Virus record (IMG/VR): IMGVR_UViG_3300009499_000019
Coordinates: 1-39,335 of that record
Direction: 5' to 3' (one strand)
Length of the DNA stretch: 39,335 bases
From: a virus
The notes under the pieces: generated by a model
Database searches by the model: none
What the model was told of the DNA's origin: nothing
Seen by the model: only the letters and a program-made list of their open reading frames with translations
Made by a program: the position numbers and the translations under genes
Part shown: piece after piece, positions 5,387 to 39,291 of the stretch
Layout of the letters: each line of letters opens with the position of its first letter
Position numbering within the stretch: position 1 is the stretch's first letter

Positions 5387-5598
5387 TGGACGACTTCAAC
5401 CCGCCCTTCACCAGCACCCCCCGCTGCCCCGAGTGCAACGGCACCGGCGGCTGGCACGAGGAAGGCGGAGCCTTCGAGTTCTGCGAGTGCGAGGTTGGGC
5501 GGTCCCGCTTCGCCCGCAACAATCCCGATCTCTGCCCCGCCTGCGTCGGACCCTGGAGCGCGCCCCACACATGCGAGAGCGAAAGGAAGGCCGCTTGA
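5386..5598 (+). CDS. Small zinc-ribbon protein, 70 aa
   Basis: Starts at 5386 within TGATG. Cysteines stand in paired motifs: CPECNGTGG (DnaJ-like CxxCxGxG), CEC a few residues later, and CPAC followed by HTCE near the C-terminus. This makes one or two zinc-binding knuckles likely. Such mini zinc fingers are common in phage early regions, where they bind nucleic acid or a host protein; which one cannot be read here. It overlaps the next gene by one base. Confidence 0.7.
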   Translation: MDDFNPPFTSTPRCPECNGTGGWHEEGGAFEFCECEVGRSRFARNNPDLCPACVGPWSAPHTCESERKAA

Positions 5599-5897
5599 TG
5601 ATGAGCGCATACGACCACTGGGTCACCCATGACCCGCGACCCGATGCCGAGATGGACAGCGACGAGGAGGTGGGGATCCTGCTCCGCGTCCTCGCGCGCA
5701 AGGTCAGGAACGAGTGGGGCCGCATTTCCTCGCAGCCGTGCCCTCCCAACCACATTCTCGATCACGTCCTCGAGATCGCCCTGGGCGATGGCGAGATCTG
5801 GGAAGCGGCGCTCCGCGAGCATCGCAAGGCGATCGACGAGGAATGGGCGGAGGCCTGCGCCGAGCGGGCCAACGATGGCCCGGATCACGACGAGTAG
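5598..5897 (+). CDS. Hypothetical acidic protein, 99 aa
   Basis: Two ATG codons in a row (5598 and 5601) follow the previous stop with a one-base overlap. The protein is acidic and helical: DEEVGILLRVLARKVRNEWGRI, then HILDHVLEIALGDGEIWEAALREHRKAIDEEWAEACAERAND. No family is recognised. It sits in the chain of overlapping early genes, so it is probably translated from the same message. Confidence 0.7.
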   Translation: MMSAYDHWVTHDPRPDAEMDSDEEVGILLRVLARKVRNEWGRISSQPCPPNHILDHVLEIALGDGEIWEAALREHRKAIDEEWAEACAERANDGPDHDE

Positions 5898-5904
5898 GTG
5901 CCCA

Positions 5905-6174
5905 ATGCCCTTCTGTGACACCTGCCAGACCGAGGCCGACCATGACCGCTCCACCGAGACGATGCGCGTCCGCTCCTGCGACTGCGGCAAGTACCAGCTG
6001 GTTCGCCTGACCGACCCCGCCGACCGCATCCGCGAGCAGCTGGAGGAGGCGGAGCGCCGAAACCCGCGCAACGGCTTCGTGGAGTCGCTGCGGAGTCAGT
6101 TCCAGTCCCGCGGAACGCTCTCACCCGCCCAGCTTGATGGCCTGGCCCGACTGGCCGGCGCCGCGACCAAGTGA
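5905..6174 (+). CDS. Hypothetical protein with two Cys pairs, 89 aa
   Basis: ATG at 5905 with a modest AGGTG upstream. The N-terminal half carries FCDTC (residues 3-7) and SCDCGKYQL (about 24-32), spaced like a small zinc finger. The C-terminal half is helical and charged (DRIREQLEEAERRNPRNGFVESLRSQF; LSPAQLDGLARLAGAA). No named family is recognised. It lies 11 bp before the ATPase gene. Confidence 0.65.
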   Translation: MPFCDTCQTEADHDRSTETMRVRSCDCGKYQLVRLTDPADRIREQLEEAERRNPRNGFVESLRSQFQSRGTLSPAQLDGLARLAGAATK

Positions 6175-6185
6175 GGAAAGAGAAG

Positions 6186-7130
6186 ATGCCAATCGCGAAG
6201 AAAGCAACGAAGTCCGACACCTACCTCAAGGTGATGGCATGGGGTGATCCCGGGTCCGGAAAGACCCGCCTCGCCCTCTCCTTCCCGGCTCCGATCCTAA
6301 TCGACCTTGAGCGCGGGTCGCGGCTGTATGCCGACCAGTTCGATTTCCTGGTGGCTGAGCCGACGCCCGAGCTTCCCGGCTTCGGCCTGGTCAAGGCGGT
6401 GGTGGATGAGATCGCCCGTGGTGAGTACCCCGACCGGCGAACCCTCATCATCGACCCGATCACCGACTACCTCGACCAGCTCGAGGTGCAGCTCCTCGAG
6501 GCGAAGAAGAAGAACGGCGTCAACCTGGACGCTCTGAGGGGCCTGCAGGCCGCCAAGGTGCGCGCCGAGGTCAAGGACGCCATCAAGGACCGCCTCGACA
6601 TCCTACTCCGCCTGCCCCTGCACATCGTGCTCGTGGCCCGGGTCAAGAACAACTGGGAAGGGTCGGCAGTGGTGGGGCAGAAGGCCGACGCGAACGACCT
6701 GGTGGAATCCCTCTGTGACGTGGTGCTCCACATCAAGAAGGGTGGGACGGCGGTGGTTCAGAAGAGCCGGATTGCCGAGCTGCCGGACACCATCAAGGCC
6801 GCCACCTACTCGGACCTAGAGGCAGCGGTCCATCTGTCCAGCAAGCCCAAGGCACCCCCGGCTGCCCCCACCGCTGCCCCATCCCTCCCTGACATCGACG
6901 CTCCGGCCATCACGCCCAACCAGCTCCAACGCCTCGCCCTGGAGTGCAAGCGGGTGTTCGGCGAGACCGAGGCGGACGCGGCCCGGAGCCGCGAGTTCCT
7001 GTCGAAGCAGGTCGGCCGCGAGATCGTCTCTCGCAAGGCTCTGACCGAAGCCGAGGCCGCGAAGCTCATCAAGCAACTGGAGGCGACTCCCAACGGCAAG
7101 CTCGCAGTTTCGAGCCAAGTCAGCGCATAG
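6186..7130 (+). CDS. Phage P-loop ATPase (AAA_24-like, possible Sak4-type recombinase)
   Basis: A 314-residue nucleotide-binding protein. The ATG at 6186 follows AGGAAAGAG; a GTG at 6171 is possible but less likely. The Walker A motif GDPGSGKT is at residues 20-27 and Walker B LIID at 87-90. The layout (KVMAWGDPGSGKTRLALSFPAPILIDLERGS, then HIVLVARVKNNWEGS, then DLVESLCDVVLHIKK) is that of the phage RecA-like ATPases of the AAA_24 family. Some members (Sak4) are single-strand annealing recombinases. A Pro/Ala-rich linker (about 222-245) separates a C-terminal helical domain (PNQLQRLALECKRVFGE...). It probably serves recombination or replication. The exact function is not proved by sequence alone. 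Confidence 0.8.
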   Translation: MPIAKKATKSDTYLKVMAWGDPGSGKTRLALSFPAPILIDLERGSRLYADQFDFLVAEPTPELPGFGLVKAVVDEIARGEYPDRRTLIIDPITDYLDQLEVQLLEAKKKNGVNLDALRGLQAAKVRAEVKDAIKDRLDILLRLPLHIVLVARVKNNWEGSAVVGQKADANDLVESLCDVVLHIKKGGTAVVQKSRIAELPDTIKAATYSDLEAAVHLSSKPKAPPAAPTAAPSLPDIDAPAITPNQLQRLALECKRVFGETEADAARSREFLSKQVGREIVSRKALTEAEAAKLIKQLEATPNGKLAVSSQVSA

Positions 7131-7140
7131 GAGACCACCC

Positions 7141-7629
7141 ATGACGAAGGACATCACCACCCTCGCTCCCGACCAGGCCGCCGCTTGGTTCCTCGGTGCC
7201 ATCCTCGGCTCCGAGCAGCTGGCTGCCGAGACCCGCGCCCGGTTCGAGGCAGAGGTCAAGGACCTGGAATCCTACCAAGCCATGAACGAGGCAGCGGAGT
7301 CGCTCGCCCGGATCAAGACCGACGCCCGCGCCTACTTCGAGTCCCAGGAGCCCGGGGTCATCACCACCGACTGGGGCAAGATCGGGATCCAGGTCCGCCG
7401 CACCCTCACCCACTCGCCCGCCGCCGTCCGCGAGCTGGCCTCGTCGATCGCCGACCTGGCGATCTCCGAGACGGTTAACGCGACCGACCTCAAGCGCTTC
7501 GTCGGGCCGCTCATTAAGTCGGGCAAAGCGCCGGCGGACCTGATGGCCCAGCTGGAGGCTCGCGCCACCGTGAAGGAGAGCAAGGCCTTCATCTGCGAGG
7601 CGGTGAAGGTGGCGGAGGTTGGCGCATGA
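7141..7629 (+). CDS. Hypothetical early protein, 162 aa
   Basis: Follows the ATPase by 10 bp with GGAGACCACCC before the ATG. The protein is acidic and almost wholly helical (DQAAAWFLGAILGSEQLAAETRARFEAEVKDLESYQAMNEAAESLARIK). The middle holds PGVITTDWGKIGIQVRRTLTHSP, and a repeat-poor helical C-terminus follows. I do not recognise it. Its position directly after the ATPase suggests a partner in the recombination or replication module. It ends in an ATGA overlap with the next gene. Confidence 0.75.
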   Translation: MTKDITTLAPDQAAAWFLGAILGSEQLAAETRARFEAEVKDLESYQAMNEAAESLARIKTDARAYFESQEPGVITTDWGKIGIQVRRTLTHSPAAVRELASSIADLAISETVNATDLKRFVGPLIKSGKAPADLMAQLEARATVKESKAFICEAVKVAEVGA

Positions 7630-7808
7630 CCACCACCACCCTCGCCGAACGCCTGGCCAAACGGATCCACAACATGGGCCCCGCGCACATCCCCTGGGAG
7701 ATGCTGGACGAGTCACTGCGCCAGGAGCTCACCCGTCAGATGGAGATCGCCCTGGCTGCCGAGGGAGTCAAGGCGCGTGGGGGGGGGGAGACGCTTGAGA
7801 GCGGATGA
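7626..7808 (+). CDS. Small protein cut short at a G10 tract
   Basis: A 60-residue product starting in an ATGA overlap with the previous gene. LAERLAKRIHNMGPAHIPWEMLDESLRQELTRQMEIALAAEGVKARGG is a credible short helical domain. The gene then enters ten consecutive G (7779-7788) and ends nine codons after the tract begins. If one G is removed, the frame stays open to 7911 and adds about 41 residues rich in Pro, Arg and Glu, filling an otherwise empty gap before the next gene at 7939. So the listed end may be a phase-off form or a sequence error. No family is recognised. Confidence 0.6.
   Translation: MTTTTLAERLAKRIHNMGPAHIPWEMLDESLRQELTRQMEIALAAEGVKARGGGETLESG
7779..7788 (+). repeat. G10 homopolymer, possible slippage site
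   Basis: Ten G in a row inside the small gene at 7626-7808. Losing one G joins the gene to an open frame running to the TAA at 7909-7911; gaining one G ends it six codons after the tract. Long G tracts are prone to polymerase slippage in cells and to errors in sequencing. Confidence 0.8.
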
Positions 7809-7938
7809 CCGACCCGTCTCGCCCTCGCCGGAGGAGTGGGGGGCTAGGAGGCCACCGCCCGTCCTGGAGGGACAGATGCCGCTCCCCTATGAGGCCCCCG
7901 CAACCGAGTAACGATGCCAAACATTCAAGGAGATAGAC

Positions 7939-8517
7939 ATGCTCTCAACCACCTTCGCCCTCCTGCGCCAGCACGACGCCTGTGAGGGCGGTTATCGAAA
8001 GCTCGCCAGGCACCTGGGCGGGATCGCCGCCTACGGCAAGGACACTCCGATCCCGCTGCTGACCATCCTGGAGAGCAACGGACTCAATGATTGTCTCTGG
8101 TCGCTCCGCGCGGTACCTGCCGAGCAAGAGGAGGATCGCGACCGGATCGCCCGGCTTTTTGCGATCGACTGCGCGGAGCGTTCTCTCGTCAACTGGGGGC
8201 AGTTTTCACGCGACGACCGCCGACCCCAAATGTCGATCGAGGTCGCACGTCGGTTTGCTGAGGGTCAAGCGACCGCTGAAGAACTGTCGGCGGCGTGGTC
8301 GGCGGCGTGGTCGGCGGCGTGGTCGGCGAGGTCGGCGGCGAGGTCGGCGGAGTCGGCGGAGTCGGCGGCGTGGTCGGCGGAGTCGGCGGCGTGGTCGGCG
8401 GAGTCGGCGGAGTCGGCGGCGTGGTCGGCGGAACGGGACTGGCAGGAGCAACTCCTGCGGAAGCACCTCACCCCTGAGCCCAAGGAAGAAGCGAAACCAC
8501 TGCCCGAGGCCGTCTAG
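7939..8517 (+). CDS. Phage protein with WSA/ESA repeats, family of unknown function
   Basis: A 192-residue protein preceded by AAGGAG. The first part (to about residue 115) has the conserved core of a family frequent in phages: ARLFAIDCAERS, DDRRPQMSIEVARRFAEGQATAEEL. Residues 117-164 are made of short Ala-rich repeats (SAAW, SAAR, SAE), then RDWQEQLLRKHL closes the fold. Proteins of this type resemble the Imm5-like group, but their role in phages is unknown. The Ala-rich repeat would form a long amphipathic helix with Trp or Glu at fixed faces. Number and type of repeat units normally vary between relatives, matching the near-perfect DNA repeat underneath. Confidence 0.75.
   Translation: MLSTTFALLRQHDACEGGYRKLARHLGGIAAYGKDTPIPLLTILESNGLNDCLWSLRAVPAEQEEDRDRIARLFAIDCAERSLVNWGQFSRDDRRPQMSIEVARRFAEGQATAEELSAAWSAAWSAAWSARSAARSAESAESAAWSAESAAWSAESAESAAWSAERDWQEQLLRKHLTPEPKEEAKPLPEAV
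8287..8432. repeat. Minisatellite coding for the WSA repeats
   Basis: Tandem array built from the blocks TCGGCGGCGTGG (Ser-Ala-Ala-Trp) and TCGGCGGAG (Ser-Ala-Glu), with a few TCGGCGAGG and TCGGCGGCGAGG variants. All units are multiples of three, so changes in copy number keep the frame. The first three 12-bp units are identical at the DNA level, which points to recent expansion. Confidence 0.9.
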
Positions 8518-8679: not shown

Positions 8680-9183
8680 ATGGCCAGAGGACTCGTCCAC
8701 GAGAGCAGCCAGATCATCAGCCAGGAATGGATCGACAGCTTCTGGTCGTTGGTCAGCAAAACCGACGACTGCTGGAACTGGCAAGGTCGCCTCGACCGAG
8801 ACGGCTACGGAAACTATCGCCATGCGAACGGCGGCCCACGAGTTCATCGAATCTCTTGGACGTTGTCTAACGGTCTGATTCCGCCTGGTCTCTTTGTCTG
8901 CCACCACTGCGACAACCGGCGCTGCGTAAATCCGTCACACCTGTTTCTCGGGACAAGCCGCGACAACACGGCGGATCGCCACCAAAAGCGTCGGGATATG
9001 CACGGAGAGGGTCATTACAAGGCCGTCTTGACCGAGCGGGATGTCATTCTGATGCGCGTCCTCTACCGGACCGGGTGCGGAACGGTCCGTCAGCTCTCCC
9101 AGAGGTTCGGAGTCTCGTTTGCGACGGCCCGGGAGGCCATTCGCGGCATCAGTTGGAAACACGTCGAAGGAGCGGTTCGATGA
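8680..9183 (+). CDS. HNH homing-type endonuclease (second copy of the family)
   Basis: A 167-residue nuclease of the same family as the one at 3993. Motifs: FWSLVSKTDDCWNWQG (about 21-36), DGYGNY, RVHRISWTLSNG, then CHHCDNRRCVNPSHLFLGT with the metal and catalytic His/Asn residues (about 74-92), and DNTADRH. The C-terminal part (LTERDVILMRVLYRTGCGTVRQLSQRFGVSFATAREAIRG) is a helix-turn-helix. Its first residues (RGLVHESSQII) resemble the first residues of the methylase that follows (RGFAHESSRNI), as if the gene had entered at the start of the methylase and copied its 5' end. It overlaps that gene by four bases (ATGA). Confidence 0.85.
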   Translation: MARGLVHESSQIISQEWIDSFWSLVSKTDDCWNWQGRLDRDGYGNYRHANGGPRVHRISWTLSNGLIPPGLFVCHHCDNRRCVNPSHLFLGTSRDNTADRHQKRRDMHGEGHYKAVLTERDVILMRVLYRTGCGTVRQLSQRFGVSFATAREAIRGISWKHVEGAVR

Positions 9184-9682: not shown

Positions 9683-10546
9683 ATGGCCCGCCACACCTGG
9701 CACAAAGCGCCCACTCGCCAGCGCGACATCCGGTACACGTCGATGACGGCCGGGGCCCGGTGCCTCTTGCGCGAGCTCGACGAGATCCTTGCCGATGATC
9801 CGACCCTGACGACCAACGTCAGCCGCCTGGCGGCCATGGTTGGACTCGATCGGAAGACGGTTCGGGAGGGCCTGGAGTCGATCGCCAATGCGGGCCTACT
9901 GCAGGTGAGCAAAGTCGAGCTGGGAAAGGAGGGGACTTTCTACACCCTGGCGGGCCCCCAACGAACCCCAGACGGACCCCAAACCAACCCCGAGCCAACC
10001 CCAAACCAACCCCCTACCGACCCCAAACCAGCCCCAGATAAATCGGCCAAAAATGCGGATCACGGCCCTGCCTCTCTTAGAGAAGAGAGGAGAGTAGAAG
10101 AGAACAGAGCAGCAGCGATCAGCGCGCGCGAGCCTGCCGCTGCCGAGCCGGTCAAGGATCTCGAGGAGCTGGAGGCGTTCTGGGCGGCCAAGAAGCGGCG
10201 CGCACCACCGCTCAGCCCCAATGAGCTGGCGGCGATCCGAGAGGCCCTGGCCATCCCAGGGGCGACCGTCGCGGGCATCAAGGCGACCGTCGAACGGGTG
10301 CTCGCCAAGAATCCGGACCGGCAAGTCTCGACGTTCAGTTACTTCAAGGGGGCGATCGCCGAAGACCTGGCCCGCCAGGGCTTGATGACCGCGCCTATCC
10401 CGGCAACCCCATCGCCCCCTTCCAGGGCAGGCCCCAAGAAGGGCAGGATTCAGGACCGCCGGCAGTACGAGGCCCTCCAGCGGGCCGGCCTGCTCGACCC
10501 CGACGACTGGGAAAACATTGCCGAGTTTGAGACGGAGGCGTCGTGA
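9683..10546 (+). CDS. Replication initiator-like protein with internal iterons
   Basis: A 287-residue protein. Residues 25-90 form a winged-helix domain (ARCLLRELDEILADDPTLTTNVSRLAAMVGLDRKTVREGLESIANAGLLQVSK) as in the N-terminal domain of lambda O-like and DnaD-like phage initiators. A low-complexity Pro/Asn/Thr linker (about 95-120) is encoded by the DNA iterons described separately. A helical C-terminal domain follows (LEELEAFWAAKKRRAPPLSPNELAAIREALAIPGATVAGIKATVERVLAKNPDRQVSTFSYFKGAIAEDLARQG), which could bind a helicase or loader. I infer that it starts phage replication at its own gene, as lambda O does. No DnaB- or DnaC-type gene is visible nearby, so host helicase loading or an unrecognised neighbour must help. 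It ends in a GTGA overlap with the next gene. Confidence 0.7.
   Translation: MARHTWHKAPTRQRDIRYTSMTAGARCLLRELDEILADDPTLTTNVSRLAAMVGLDRKTVREGLESIANAGLLQVSKVELGKEGTFYTLAGPQRTPDGPQTNPEPTPNQPPTDPKPAPDKSAKNADHGPASLREERRVEENRAAAISAREPAAAEPVKDLEELEAFWAAKKRRAPPLSPNELAAIREALAIPGATVAGIKATVERVLAKNPDRQVSTFSYFKGAIAEDLARQGLMTAPIPATPSPPSRAGPKKGRIQDRRQYEALQRAGLLDPDDWENIAEFETEAS
9954..10090. other. Putative replication origin: 22-bp-spaced iterons, A-rich stretch, palindrome
   Basis: ACCCCAAACCAACCCC occurs at 9976-9991 and 9998-10013, and with one change at 10020-10035. A fourth, weaker copy (13 of 16) is at 9954-9969. The starts are exactly 22 bp apart, about two helical turns. An A-rich stretch follows (10036-10054: AGATAAATCGGCCAAAAAT), then the perfect dyad CCTCTCTT-AGAG-AAGAGAGG (10071-10090) and a purine-rich strand. 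This is the layout of lambda ori inside gene O. Coding low-complexity is the alternative explanation. Confidence 0.6.
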
Positions 10547-11061
10547 CCACGCATATTTCAGACCTCATCCGCTTACCCGAGGGCGACTTCGAGGAGGAGC
10601 GCGTCATCGACCTCGAGACGCGGACGGTCCGGACGATCCGGCGGCCGCGGGAGTCGGGGAGCAACGAGCCGGCCCGGCGGCGCGACCCAGGATACCGGCA
10701 CCTGCTGTGCCAGGACCGCGGCGTCATCGACTACATCGAGCAGCGGCCCCACGGCGTCATCGGGGACGACCGGACCATCCCGTACGGCTACGTCGCTCGC
10801 TGCTACTGCAAGGCCTCGCTGAACGTGTCCCAGTCGATCCCACAGTTCGTGGACATCTTCGGGGCGTGGCCAGAGGAGCCGGGCCGGCAAGCGCCGCCGC
10901 GAGTGCAGGAGCCTGAGGCGCCGAAGCCTGCCGGCAACCTGCTCCGGTTCCCATCGTACACCGAGCCCCCCGAGGTCGTGCCCGAGGTGATCGTGCCGGC
11001 CCCGAGCCAGTCCACCCAATTCACCGGGACGCAAGTCCAGGATTTGAGCGACTTCGAGTGA
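10543..11061 (+). CDS. Hypothetical protein after the initiator, 172 aa
   Basis: Starts with GTG at 10543 in a GTGA overlap with the initiator gene. The first 110 residues look folded: ISDLIRLPEGDFEEERVIDLETRTVRTIRRP, then YRHLLCQDRGVIDYIEQRPHGVIGDDRTIPYGYVARCYCKASLN, with a CYCK motif. The rest is Pro/Glu-rich and probably disordered, ending in the acidic tip QVQDLSDFE. No helicase or loader motif is present. Co-translation with the initiator suggests a replication accessory role, which is inference only. The acidic C-terminal tip is reminiscent of single-strand DNA-binding proteins, but no OB fold can be recognised by eye. Confidence 0.65.
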   Translation: MTTHISDLIRLPEGDFEEERVIDLETRTVRTIRRPRESGSNEPARRRDPGYRHLLCQDRGVIDYIEQRPHGVIGDDRTIPYGYVARCYCKASLNVSQSIPQFVDIFGAWPEEPGRQAPPRVQEPEAPKPAGNLLRFPSYTEPPEVVPEVIVPAPSQSTQFTGTQVQDLSDFE

Positions 11062-13095: not shown

Positions 13096-13331
13096 GCGTT
13101 CACCACTTTCAGCTCGACGTTGAGGGTGCCCTGCTCAACTGGCCACTCAAGAGGTTCAAGGGGATGTTTCTGGACAGCAAGGGTGGGGTGATGTCGCCGG
13201 ACGAGGCGAAACGCCATCTATTGCGGTTGTTCGGAAAGGGCGTCAAGTACCTGCCCTTTGGCAACTGCGAGGGCTTCGACCCCGTGACCGGCTGCCCTGG
13301 GCACCCAGAAGACGGAGAGGTGACCCCATGA
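13092..13331 (+). CDS. Hypothetical protein, 79 aa
   Basis: Starts in the ATGA overlap with the preceding gene and ends four bases into the next. The sequence contains DEAKRHLLRLFGKGVKYLPFGNCEGFDPVTGCPGHPEDGE, with two Cys and one His in the last 25 residues that could bind a metal. No family is recognised. Its tight coupling to the RusA gene suggests it belongs to the same DNA-processing module. Confidence 0.65.
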   Translation: MSVHHFQLDVEGALLNWPLKRFKGMFLDSKGGVMSPDEAKRHLLRLFGKGVKYLPFGNCEGFDPVTGCPGHPEDGEVTP

Positions 13332-13765
13332 TCCGCATCGAGATCCCCGGACTCCCTCCGTCAGTCAACGCCGAACGGGGGAAGCTCCGGCAGGCCATGC
13401 GCAAGCGGCGGGAGTTCAAGGCCACCGTTCACGCGGCCGTGTTCGACGCGAACCTCGAGGGAATCGGCCTCGGCTCACGCGAGCGCCCAGTCCGGGTGGA
13501 GATCGTCTACGTCTTCGGGCCGCGTCGACGCTCGAGCGACACCTTCAACCGCGAGAAAGCGCTCCTCGATGCCCTAACCACCGCCGGGGTCCTCTATGAC
13601 GATCGCTGGGTCAAGATTGGCGAGATCACCTCAGTTTGGGGGCCAGAGGATCGAACACTCGTCAAGCTGTGGGAGGTCGATGAGCCAACGCTCGAACAGG
13701 TGATGGAGTGGTTTGACGCACCGCACCCGTTGATGGAGCGGGTAATGGGAGGGCGCCGTGGCTGA
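13328..13765 (+). CDS. rusA: RusA-like Holliday junction resolvase
   Basis: A 145-residue endonuclease of the RusA family that cuts four-way DNA junctions. The N-terminal IEIPGLPPSVN is the family signature. The catalytic acids are visible: D71 in SSDTFN, D81 in ALLDAL, and D91/D92 in VLYDDRWV, spaced as in E. coli RusA (D70, D72, D91) apart from a Ser-Asp-Thr change in the first cluster. Length fits the family (about 120-145). It probably resolves branched replication intermediates before packaging, acting with the P-loop ATPase. It overlaps both neighbours and lies near the end of the early operon. Confidence 0.85.
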   Translation: MIRIEIPGLPPSVNAERGKLRQAMRKRREFKATVHAAVFDANLEGIGLGSRERPVRVEIVYVFGPRRRSSDTFNREKALLDALTTAGVLYDDRWVKIGEITSVWGPEDRTLVKLWEVDEPTLEQVMEWFDAPHPLMERVMGGRRG

Positions 13766-14466: not shown

Positions 14467-15045
14467 GTGGAATCAAAACGCAAACAACCCCATGTGTCTC
14501 GCGAGGGGAAGTGTACCGCACGAAGCAAACGCCGCCCCGGGGAGCCATGCGGAGCATGGGCCGTCAAGGGAAAGGATGTCTGTTACCATCACGGCGGGGC
14601 GAGCACAGGCGCCCCGGACCGCAACAAGAATGCGGTAACGACGGGCGAGCGGGAAACCATCTGGACCGATGTCCTGGACGAGACCGAGCAATCGATACTC
14701 GAGCGCAACCTCGACAAGCTGAAGCTGCTCGAGGAAGAGATCGGGCTCCTGACCATCCGCGAACGGCGGATGCTCGCGCGCATCAAGTCGCTCGCAGATG
14801 ACCCGGACGGCATGACCCTGGTTGAACAGACCGAGGAGTTCAGCGAGGACAGCCACAAGAGCAAGGCCAAGAGGATCGGCACGCTCGGACAGATCCAGCG
14901 AATCGAGGAGGCGCTGACCAGGGTCCAAGCCCAAAAGAATCGGGCGATCGAGCTGAAACACAAGCTTGAGATGGATAGCGGCGCGGCAGACGGGGGCAAC
15001 ATCCCGACCATTCGTGTCGTTCCACCGTCTGGGAAGACGATATGA
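14467..15045 (+). CDS. terS: Terminase small subunit with N-terminal zinc finger
   Basis: A 192-residue DNA-recognition subunit of the packaging motor. Start GTG at 14467 behind a G-rich stretch. Residues 16-42 hold C16, C28, C39 and H42 in the pattern CTARSKRRPGEPCGAWAVKGKDVCYHHGG. The signature HHGGASTGAPDRNKNA that follows is typical of terminase small subunits of this kind. The rest is a long charged coiled coil (TEQSILERNLDKLKLLEEEIGLLTIRERRMLARI; RIEEALTRVQAQKNRAIELKHKLE) for oligomer formation. The protein would bind the packaging site and hand the DNA to the large subunit, whose ATG overlaps the stop. Confidence 0.85.
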   Translation: MESKRKQPHVSREGKCTARSKRRPGEPCGAWAVKGKDVCYHHGGASTGAPDRNKNAVTTGERETIWTDVLDETEQSILERNLDKLKLLEEEIGLLTIRERRMLARIKSLADDPDGMTLVEQTEEFSEDSHKSKAKRIGTLGQIQRIEEALTRVQAQKNRAIELKHKLEMDSGAADGGNIPTIRVVPPSGKTI

Positions 15046-39212: not shown

Positions 39213-39267
39213 ACGTAGTGGAGGCGCAGGGATTCGAACCCTGAACCAAGGGATTATGAGTCCCCTG
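39213..39267 (-). other. attR: Right attachment site
   Basis: Bases 39213-39260 are identical to 76-123. The right copy is inside an intact tRNA gene, so the prophage end restores the 3' part of the tRNA and leaves the host gene functional. The repeat includes six bases past the tRNA end. Confidence 0.9.
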
Positions 39268-39291
39268 CTCTGACCGTTGAGCTACACCTCC
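39219..39291 (-). tRNA. tRNA with CAT anticodon (tRNA-Met), integration target
   Basis: The minus strand folds into a full cloverleaf of 73 bases: acceptor GGAGGTG/CGCCTCC, D stem GCTC/GAGC, anticodon stem GGGGA/TCCCT with loop CTCATAA, and T arm CAGGG-TTCGAAT-CCCTG. The discriminator base is A. The anticodon is CAT. CCA is not encoded, so it is added by enzyme. Elongator Met is most likely; tRNA-Ile with a lysidine-modified CAT cannot be excluded by eye. It lacks the three consecutive G-C pairs expected in the anticodon stem of an initiator. Confidence 0.93.

Follow-up and report, generated by a model that had tools for sequence, protein, structure and literature searches.

Does the proline-rich linker of a viral replication initiator serve the protein, or is it the by-product of a signal written in the DNA that encodes it? 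The question is raised by a tandem repeat in one gene of a complete virus record from IMG/VR (39,335 bp), the whole of which is referred to here as the window.

An out-of-frame array in the initiator gene

The gene (9683..10546, plus strand) encodes 287 aa arranged as a predicted N-terminal winged helix, a proline-rich linker and a C-terminal domain. Its product matches PHROG 270, 'replication initiation protein' (E 2.8e-7, residues 16-209 of 287), over both the DNA-binding and the C-terminal parts. Weaker family matches are to DnaD-like loaders and O-like initiators (E 0.002-0.2), including a weak match to the O-like PHROG 391 (E 0.0031). Winged-helix Pfam matches are weak and lie under their cut-offs; family matches together with a reading of the sequence suggest a winged-helix-like fold for the putative N-terminal DNA-binding domain (9683..9952, plus strand). 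The surroundings include two members of a replication/recombination module, a Sak4-like single-strand annealing protein (6171..7130, plus strand; PHROG 124, E 3.8e-17) and a RusA-like resolvase (13328..13765, plus strand; PHROG 34, E 6.8e-16; Pfam PF05866), as well as a Dam methylase at 9075 and a terminase at 15042. The next gene (10543..11061, plus strand) carries a CQDRGVI...VARC motif and had no match in family searches (Pfam, PHROG), and no helicase-loader (P-type) gene was recognised adjoining the initiator. At the extreme end of the record, a tRNA-Met (CAT) on the minus strand (39218-39291) is possibly an attachment site remnant or a phage tRNA.

Within the linker, between the N-terminal domain and the C-terminal part, eight CCCC tracts follow one another at an exact 11-bp spacing (9955..10035, plus strand; consensus CCCCAAACCAA), with CCCC-N7 copies starting at 9955, 9966, 9977, 9988, 9999, 10010, 10021 and 10032. 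We propose that these tracts are half-sites for the initiator. The first-pass annotation, made from the letters alone, had correctly placed repeats inside the linker codons of an initiator gene, and had described them as four 16-bp iterons with an exact 22-bp period. The period stands: Tandem Repeats Finder (TRF) assigns both period 22 (score 103) and period 11 to 9955-10038, and four imperfect 22-bp iterons can be delimited on the plus strand (9959-9980, 9981-10002, 10003-10024 and 10025-10046) with a lag-22 identity of 51/66. The 16-bp unit does not, as the 16-mers of the 22-bp units agree at 10-13 of 16 positions and the basic unit of the array is 11 bp, not 22 bp. No inverted repeat was found inside the array; its units are direct repeats.

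Periods of 11 and 22 bp do not fit a whole number of codons, and the period of the array is a DNA-level feature. Inside the initiator gene, the 51 matches at lag 22 compare with a maximum of 41 among 200 local codon shuffles. The values observed at lags 11 and 22 were reached by 0 of 20,000 shuffles, by synonymous recoding or codon shuffling alike, and the synonymous p-value for the maximum across all non-frame lags is 0.0002. The same lag test applied to the terminase, Sak4, Dam and 11058 genes of the window revealed no such signal, and the 39-kb record contains no other strong out-of-frame tandem array than that at 9955-10038. Because its period is out of frame, the same linker stretch also gives a frameshifted self-match in tblastn. 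Elsewhere in the window, the gene at 7939-8517 contains an in-frame tandem repeat (8286-8431) coding SAAWSAES-type repeats; its periods (9, 12, 21 and 51) all respect the codon frame, which those of the initiator array do not.

These tests bear directly on a protein-driven pattern, in which a flexible proline-rich linker would use CCN codons and thereby yield C-rich DNA. The linker is indeed proline-rich, here and in the close relative described below, and its prolines recur at 4, 3, 4 residues. However, the period runs across the codon frame, and lags 11 and 22 were never reproduced by synonymous recoding; the protein-driven repeat was rejected by both the synonymous and the codon shuffles, and we regard it as very improbable. 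Given the DNA signal, we read the peptide as mostly dictated by the letters of the array, so that the odd proline-rich linker is probably a side effect, as had been suggested at first pass.

A relative with the same period and different letters

Only one close relative was found, IMGVR_UViG_3300042922_000689 (L003), whose N-terminal domain is 53% identical to that of the window initiator over 90 aa. Searches of a phage database with the full protein and with the array DNA gave no match, genome contigs scanned with the window protein and with a two-sequence profile yielded no relative, and IMG/VR scans with the N-terminal domain, the neighbour gene and a block of shared DNA returned only L003 again. 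A further candidate, L004, was discarded since the shared block occurs there by chance in an unrelated gene, and terminase relatives are too distant to inform the comparison. The L003 linker, also proline-rich, has an exact 22-bp period equal in strength to that of the window (51/66). Its iteron letters differ (about ACCGTCACCC where the window has AACCAACCCC), the array being mostly CCC with longer gaps, and the linker peptide has drifted as well. A homologue that keeps the DNA period while the peptide drifts is the outcome that the first-pass annotation had named as a check on its claim.

The same comparison speaks to the idea that the array is a non-functional tandem duplication, a slippage minisatellite lying in an initiator gene by chance. 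Perfect-copy out-of-frame arrays do occur, and most of the 10-bp matches in the survey below are of this kind. Here the copies have diverged between the C4 tracts yet remain exactly in register, and L003 keeps the period and not the letters.

The two initiator genes (L003 5001-5888 and window 9683-10546) have the N-terminal domain and the linker design in common, and their C-terminal parts look unrelated. Most of the L003 protein is O-like (PHROG 391, E 1.5e-22), and its C-terminal part has a tblastn match to lambda O. The gene 3' of it resembles the SPP1 G39P loader (PF11417, E 0.0013; PHROG 2289, helicase loader) and is followed by the CQDRGVI...VARC neighbour (L003 6376-6819, 38% identity to the window gene). 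It looks as if the C-terminal part was swapped at, near or downstream of the array.

Both arrays end at the same place, and DNA alignment reveals a block common to these two closely related sequences (CCCAGATAAATC..C.A..AATGCGG; 10033..10058, plus strand), at the start of an AT-richer stretch; a small pyrimidine/purine dyad follows, with a purine tract after it. As to the A-rich stretch claimed to come after the iterons, AT content rises to 60% over 10036-10060 against 34% for the gene; the stretch is short (25 bp, and 49% AT over 85 bp), the lambda-type yardstick being ~40 bp of AT-rich DNA adjoining the iterons. The dyad at 10071..10090 (plus strand), previously called perfect, is not a perfect 20-bp palindrome and consists of 8-bp arms (CCTCTCTT/AAGAGAGG) around AGAG. 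In L003 a dyad with 7-bp arms occupies the matching position (5449-5465). The folding z-score is only -1.3, and the record has 13 similar hairpins (overlapping registers counted); a dyad-centred reading is disfavoured. The purine (AGAGA) tract 3' of the dyad (10080..10109, plus strand) has a counterpart in L003. As lambda-like parts, the AT stretch and the dyad are weak here. GC skew, which had been put forward as a check, is low over 0-12 kb and after detrending reaches its maximum at 22.6 kb; it is compatible with an origin in the initiator gene and does not pinpoint one.

Arrays at 11-bp spacing in other viral initiators

We scanned IMG/VR for five CCCC tracts at 11-bp spacing. About half of the first matches were poly-C, and at least 54 clean loci remained after poly-C removal. 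When 30 array-containing ORFs among the 11-bp matches listed were scanned against PHROGs, 16 were replication-linked, comprising replication initiators, DnaD-like loaders, primosomal proteins and a DUF6291 group (PHROG 15768/16304/19415). Initiator families with such arrays are DUF6291, DnaD-like, and PHROG 270, 1701, 2514 and 1408. Two findings led us to count DUF6291 among the initiators: one member (L143) has additional matches to primosomal and O-like families, and a Porphyromonas phage encodes a C-terminal homologue that carries the annotation replication initiation protein. In the 11-bp subset with non-C letters beside each tract, initiators account for 13 of 24 distinct ORFs among the matches listed, whereas 10-bp spacing, with 48 loci in the whole collection, gave 0 of 20 scanned ORFs (Fisher p 5e-5 for these two fractions). 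The in-frame 12-bp spacing is common and mostly represents tetrapeptide repeats. For a sample of 50, the 25 families shown include no more than 13 member matches to replication families, so that this class includes some initiators and offers a weaker contrast than 10 bp. For each spacing class, the contrast draws on 20-50 ORFs annotated with PHROGs. That such arrays are strongly enriched in initiators at 11 bp and not at 10 bp is a third point against the minisatellite, a reading to which we attach very little weight.

The arrays occur on either strand, and the linkers are accordingly proline-rich or glycine-rich (glycine-rich in, for example, L061, L077, L106 and L116). That the strand decides the reading again points to the DNA, and further argues against the protein-driven pattern. 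Across 21 array genes, the AT excess over the gene is ~9-11 points after the array and ~2-4 points before it. Seven loci with DUF6291-type initiators (L030, L044, L086, L090, L132, L143 and L317) have AT-rich 6-bp repeats (AATGTA/AATGAT, encoding NVND) just beyond the C4 array or the linker; these are possibly the unwinding element. One CCCC 11-bp array (L133, minus strand) lies in a DNA primase gene (5663-8098) rather than in a separate initiator, and primases may also carry such putative origins. Six further arrays (L058, L064, L105, L115, L121 and L129) have no ORF of at least 100 aa across them; they may represent similar origins in intergenic DNA.

The out-of-frame period test was also applied to initiators of named phages picked by homology alone; it is blind to periods that are multiples of 3, such as the 21 of phi80. 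Period 11/22 was found in the initiators of Staphylococcus phage SAP33, Vibrio phage 1.133.O, Riemerella phage GRNRAP2, Klebsiella phi18.2, Acinetobacter A3926.3 and Gordonia Hortense. SAP33 has six near-perfect 11-mers (e.g., GACAACAAATC). The lambda initiator shows period 23, and Nitratiruptor phage NrS-3 shows 23 and 11. Some Streptomyces and Gordonia phage initiators have period 7 or 8 with GGGAACA-type repeats, another DNA-level array in initiators; out-of-frame 7-/8-bp repeats coding GNREQGT-like peptides were seen in the initiator linkers of L025 (Gordonia ClubL), L014 (SpeedDemon), and L010 and L011 (Streptomyces phages). Several of the phage initiators tested had no out-of-frame period. 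Phage 80alpha, chosen as an expected 11-bp positive control, instead has a 15/30-bp in-frame array in its annotated putative origin. The 11-bp spacing is thus frequent in phage initiators and not universal. We found no description of 11-bp C-tract arrays in phage initiators in the open-access literature, a scope outside which most subscription journals fall.

The breadth of these arrays also bears on whether the G-rich strand opens the DNA as a G-quadruplex or R-loop without iteron recognition. The minus strand of the window array, (GGGG N7)x8, does fit the canonical quadruplex pattern. An exact 11-bp register is unnecessary for a quadruplex, though, and the mostly CCC tracts and longer gaps of L003 suit one poorly. 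In addition, 10-bp arrays, whose loops are shorter, were not in initiators among the 20 ORFs scanned, and the related Riemerella and Staphylococcus phage arrays have only CC or a single C. This makes a quadruplex or R-loop a highly unlikely explanation.

A predicted origin and its place among known embedded origins

Taken together, the array is probably an iteron replication origin bound by the initiator and embedded in the initiator's own gene. This prediction from sequence is founded on an out-of-frame period that exceeds protein-level nulls and is kept in L003 with other letters, on the initiator family matches and the enrichment of 11-bp arrays in other initiators, and on the precedents of lambda, SPP1 gene 38 and 80alpha ORF20 (PMC5043065, PMC6316719, PMC5499656). 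In the mechanism that we propose, the winged-helix domain would bind head-to-tail half-sites, each a CCCC tract with a few flanking bases, one per 11 bp, which is about one helical turn; the half-sites would be paired as 22-bp iterons. The bound initiator would bend or wrap the array, the adjoining AT-richer stretch from 10036 (AGATAAATC) would open, and the C-terminal part of the initiator and/or a loader would recruit the host DnaB-type helicase at the opened stretch. The linker peptide would be mostly whatever the letters of the array encode. We infer initiator binding, DNA opening and helicase loading by analogy with known systems.

Binding by the initiator could also serve another end. 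In iteron plasmids, iterons also control copy number, and by this parallel the array might restrain initiator expression as an operator, copy-number or handcuffing site, with replication starting elsewhere; binding alone would account for the kept period. Several observations weigh against it: the array lies 270 bp into the gene, away from promoters, in both relatives it is followed by an AT-richer block, the embedded arrays of lambda, SPP1 and 80alpha are origins, and the record holds no second comparable out-of-frame array. We therefore consider a purely regulatory site unlikely, if somewhat less so than the three alternatives above, and retain the embedded origin.

Whether several unrelated initiator families have repeatedly evolved linker-encoded origins made of C/G tracts at exact 11-bp spacing is, in our judgement, evenly balanced. 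If they have, any gene with an out-of-frame 11-bp array would be marked as an initiator gene and as the site of its origin, and the array would dictate the amino acids of the linker. In-gene tandem periods not divisible by 3 would offer a sequence-only route to origin and initiator in uncultured phages, and the low-complexity linkers of such initiators would be explained as a consequence of DNA function. The difference in enrichment between 11 and 10 bp makes it testable why several initiator families have the 11-bp spacing.

Among the closest known systems is lambda, whose origin is embedded in the initiator gene and whose helicase is loaded at opened AT-rich DNA (PMC5043065). In lambda O/ori (as in the phi80 gene 15 sites and Stx phages) and in the window, repeats lie mid-gene in the initiator linker and are followed by AT-rich or, in the window, AT-richer DNA. 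The lambda iterons are pairs of C-tract and G-tract half-sites, and O protects or contacts G residues of these tracts (PMC7466680); short C/G tracts spaced by about one helical turn are thus common to both. In lambda the iterons are inverted repeats and lie 20-24 bp from one another, whereas the window half-sites are direct repeats at exactly 11/22 bp, in agreement with the earlier remark that iteron sequence and period are unlike those of lambda. The O-like family match is weak in the window and its AT stretch is shorter. Of the lambda-type features, repeats inside the initiator gene and predicted to bind the initiator were found. Inverted-repeat iterons and a loader gene next to the initiator were looked for in the window and not found, and for this reason we do not class the array as a lambda O-type origin. 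The first-pass interpretation is supported by the period kept in L003, by the initiator family matches, by the O-like matches of L003 and by the enrichment of arrays with this spacing in other phage initiators; its lambda-specific parts, the AT stretch and the dyad, are weak here.

In SPP1 the initiator gene, gene 38, contains an origin with direct repeats and an AT-rich element, and the helicase is loaded there (PMC6316719). SPP1 gene 38/oriL and the window share repeats in the initiator gene, and the gene following the L003 initiator is G39P-like; SPP1 has its G39P loader, whereas none was recognised beside the window initiator. In 80alpha, genetics placed the origin in ORF20, deletion of ORF20 is not complemented in trans, and ORF20 plus ORF21 are enough for replication (PMC5499656). 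This annotated, genetically inferred origin also lies within an initiator gene, but its repeats have a 15/30-bp in-frame period and dyad character. The 11-bp initiators of IMG/VR, SAP33 and GRNRAP2 have the out-of-frame 11/22-bp arrays of the window, often with AT-rich DNA after them, and differ in family, in the letters between tracts and, for some, in a G-strand reading. By analogy with these systems, the best reading is that the window array would work like lambda ori, SPP1 oriL and the origin of 80alpha.
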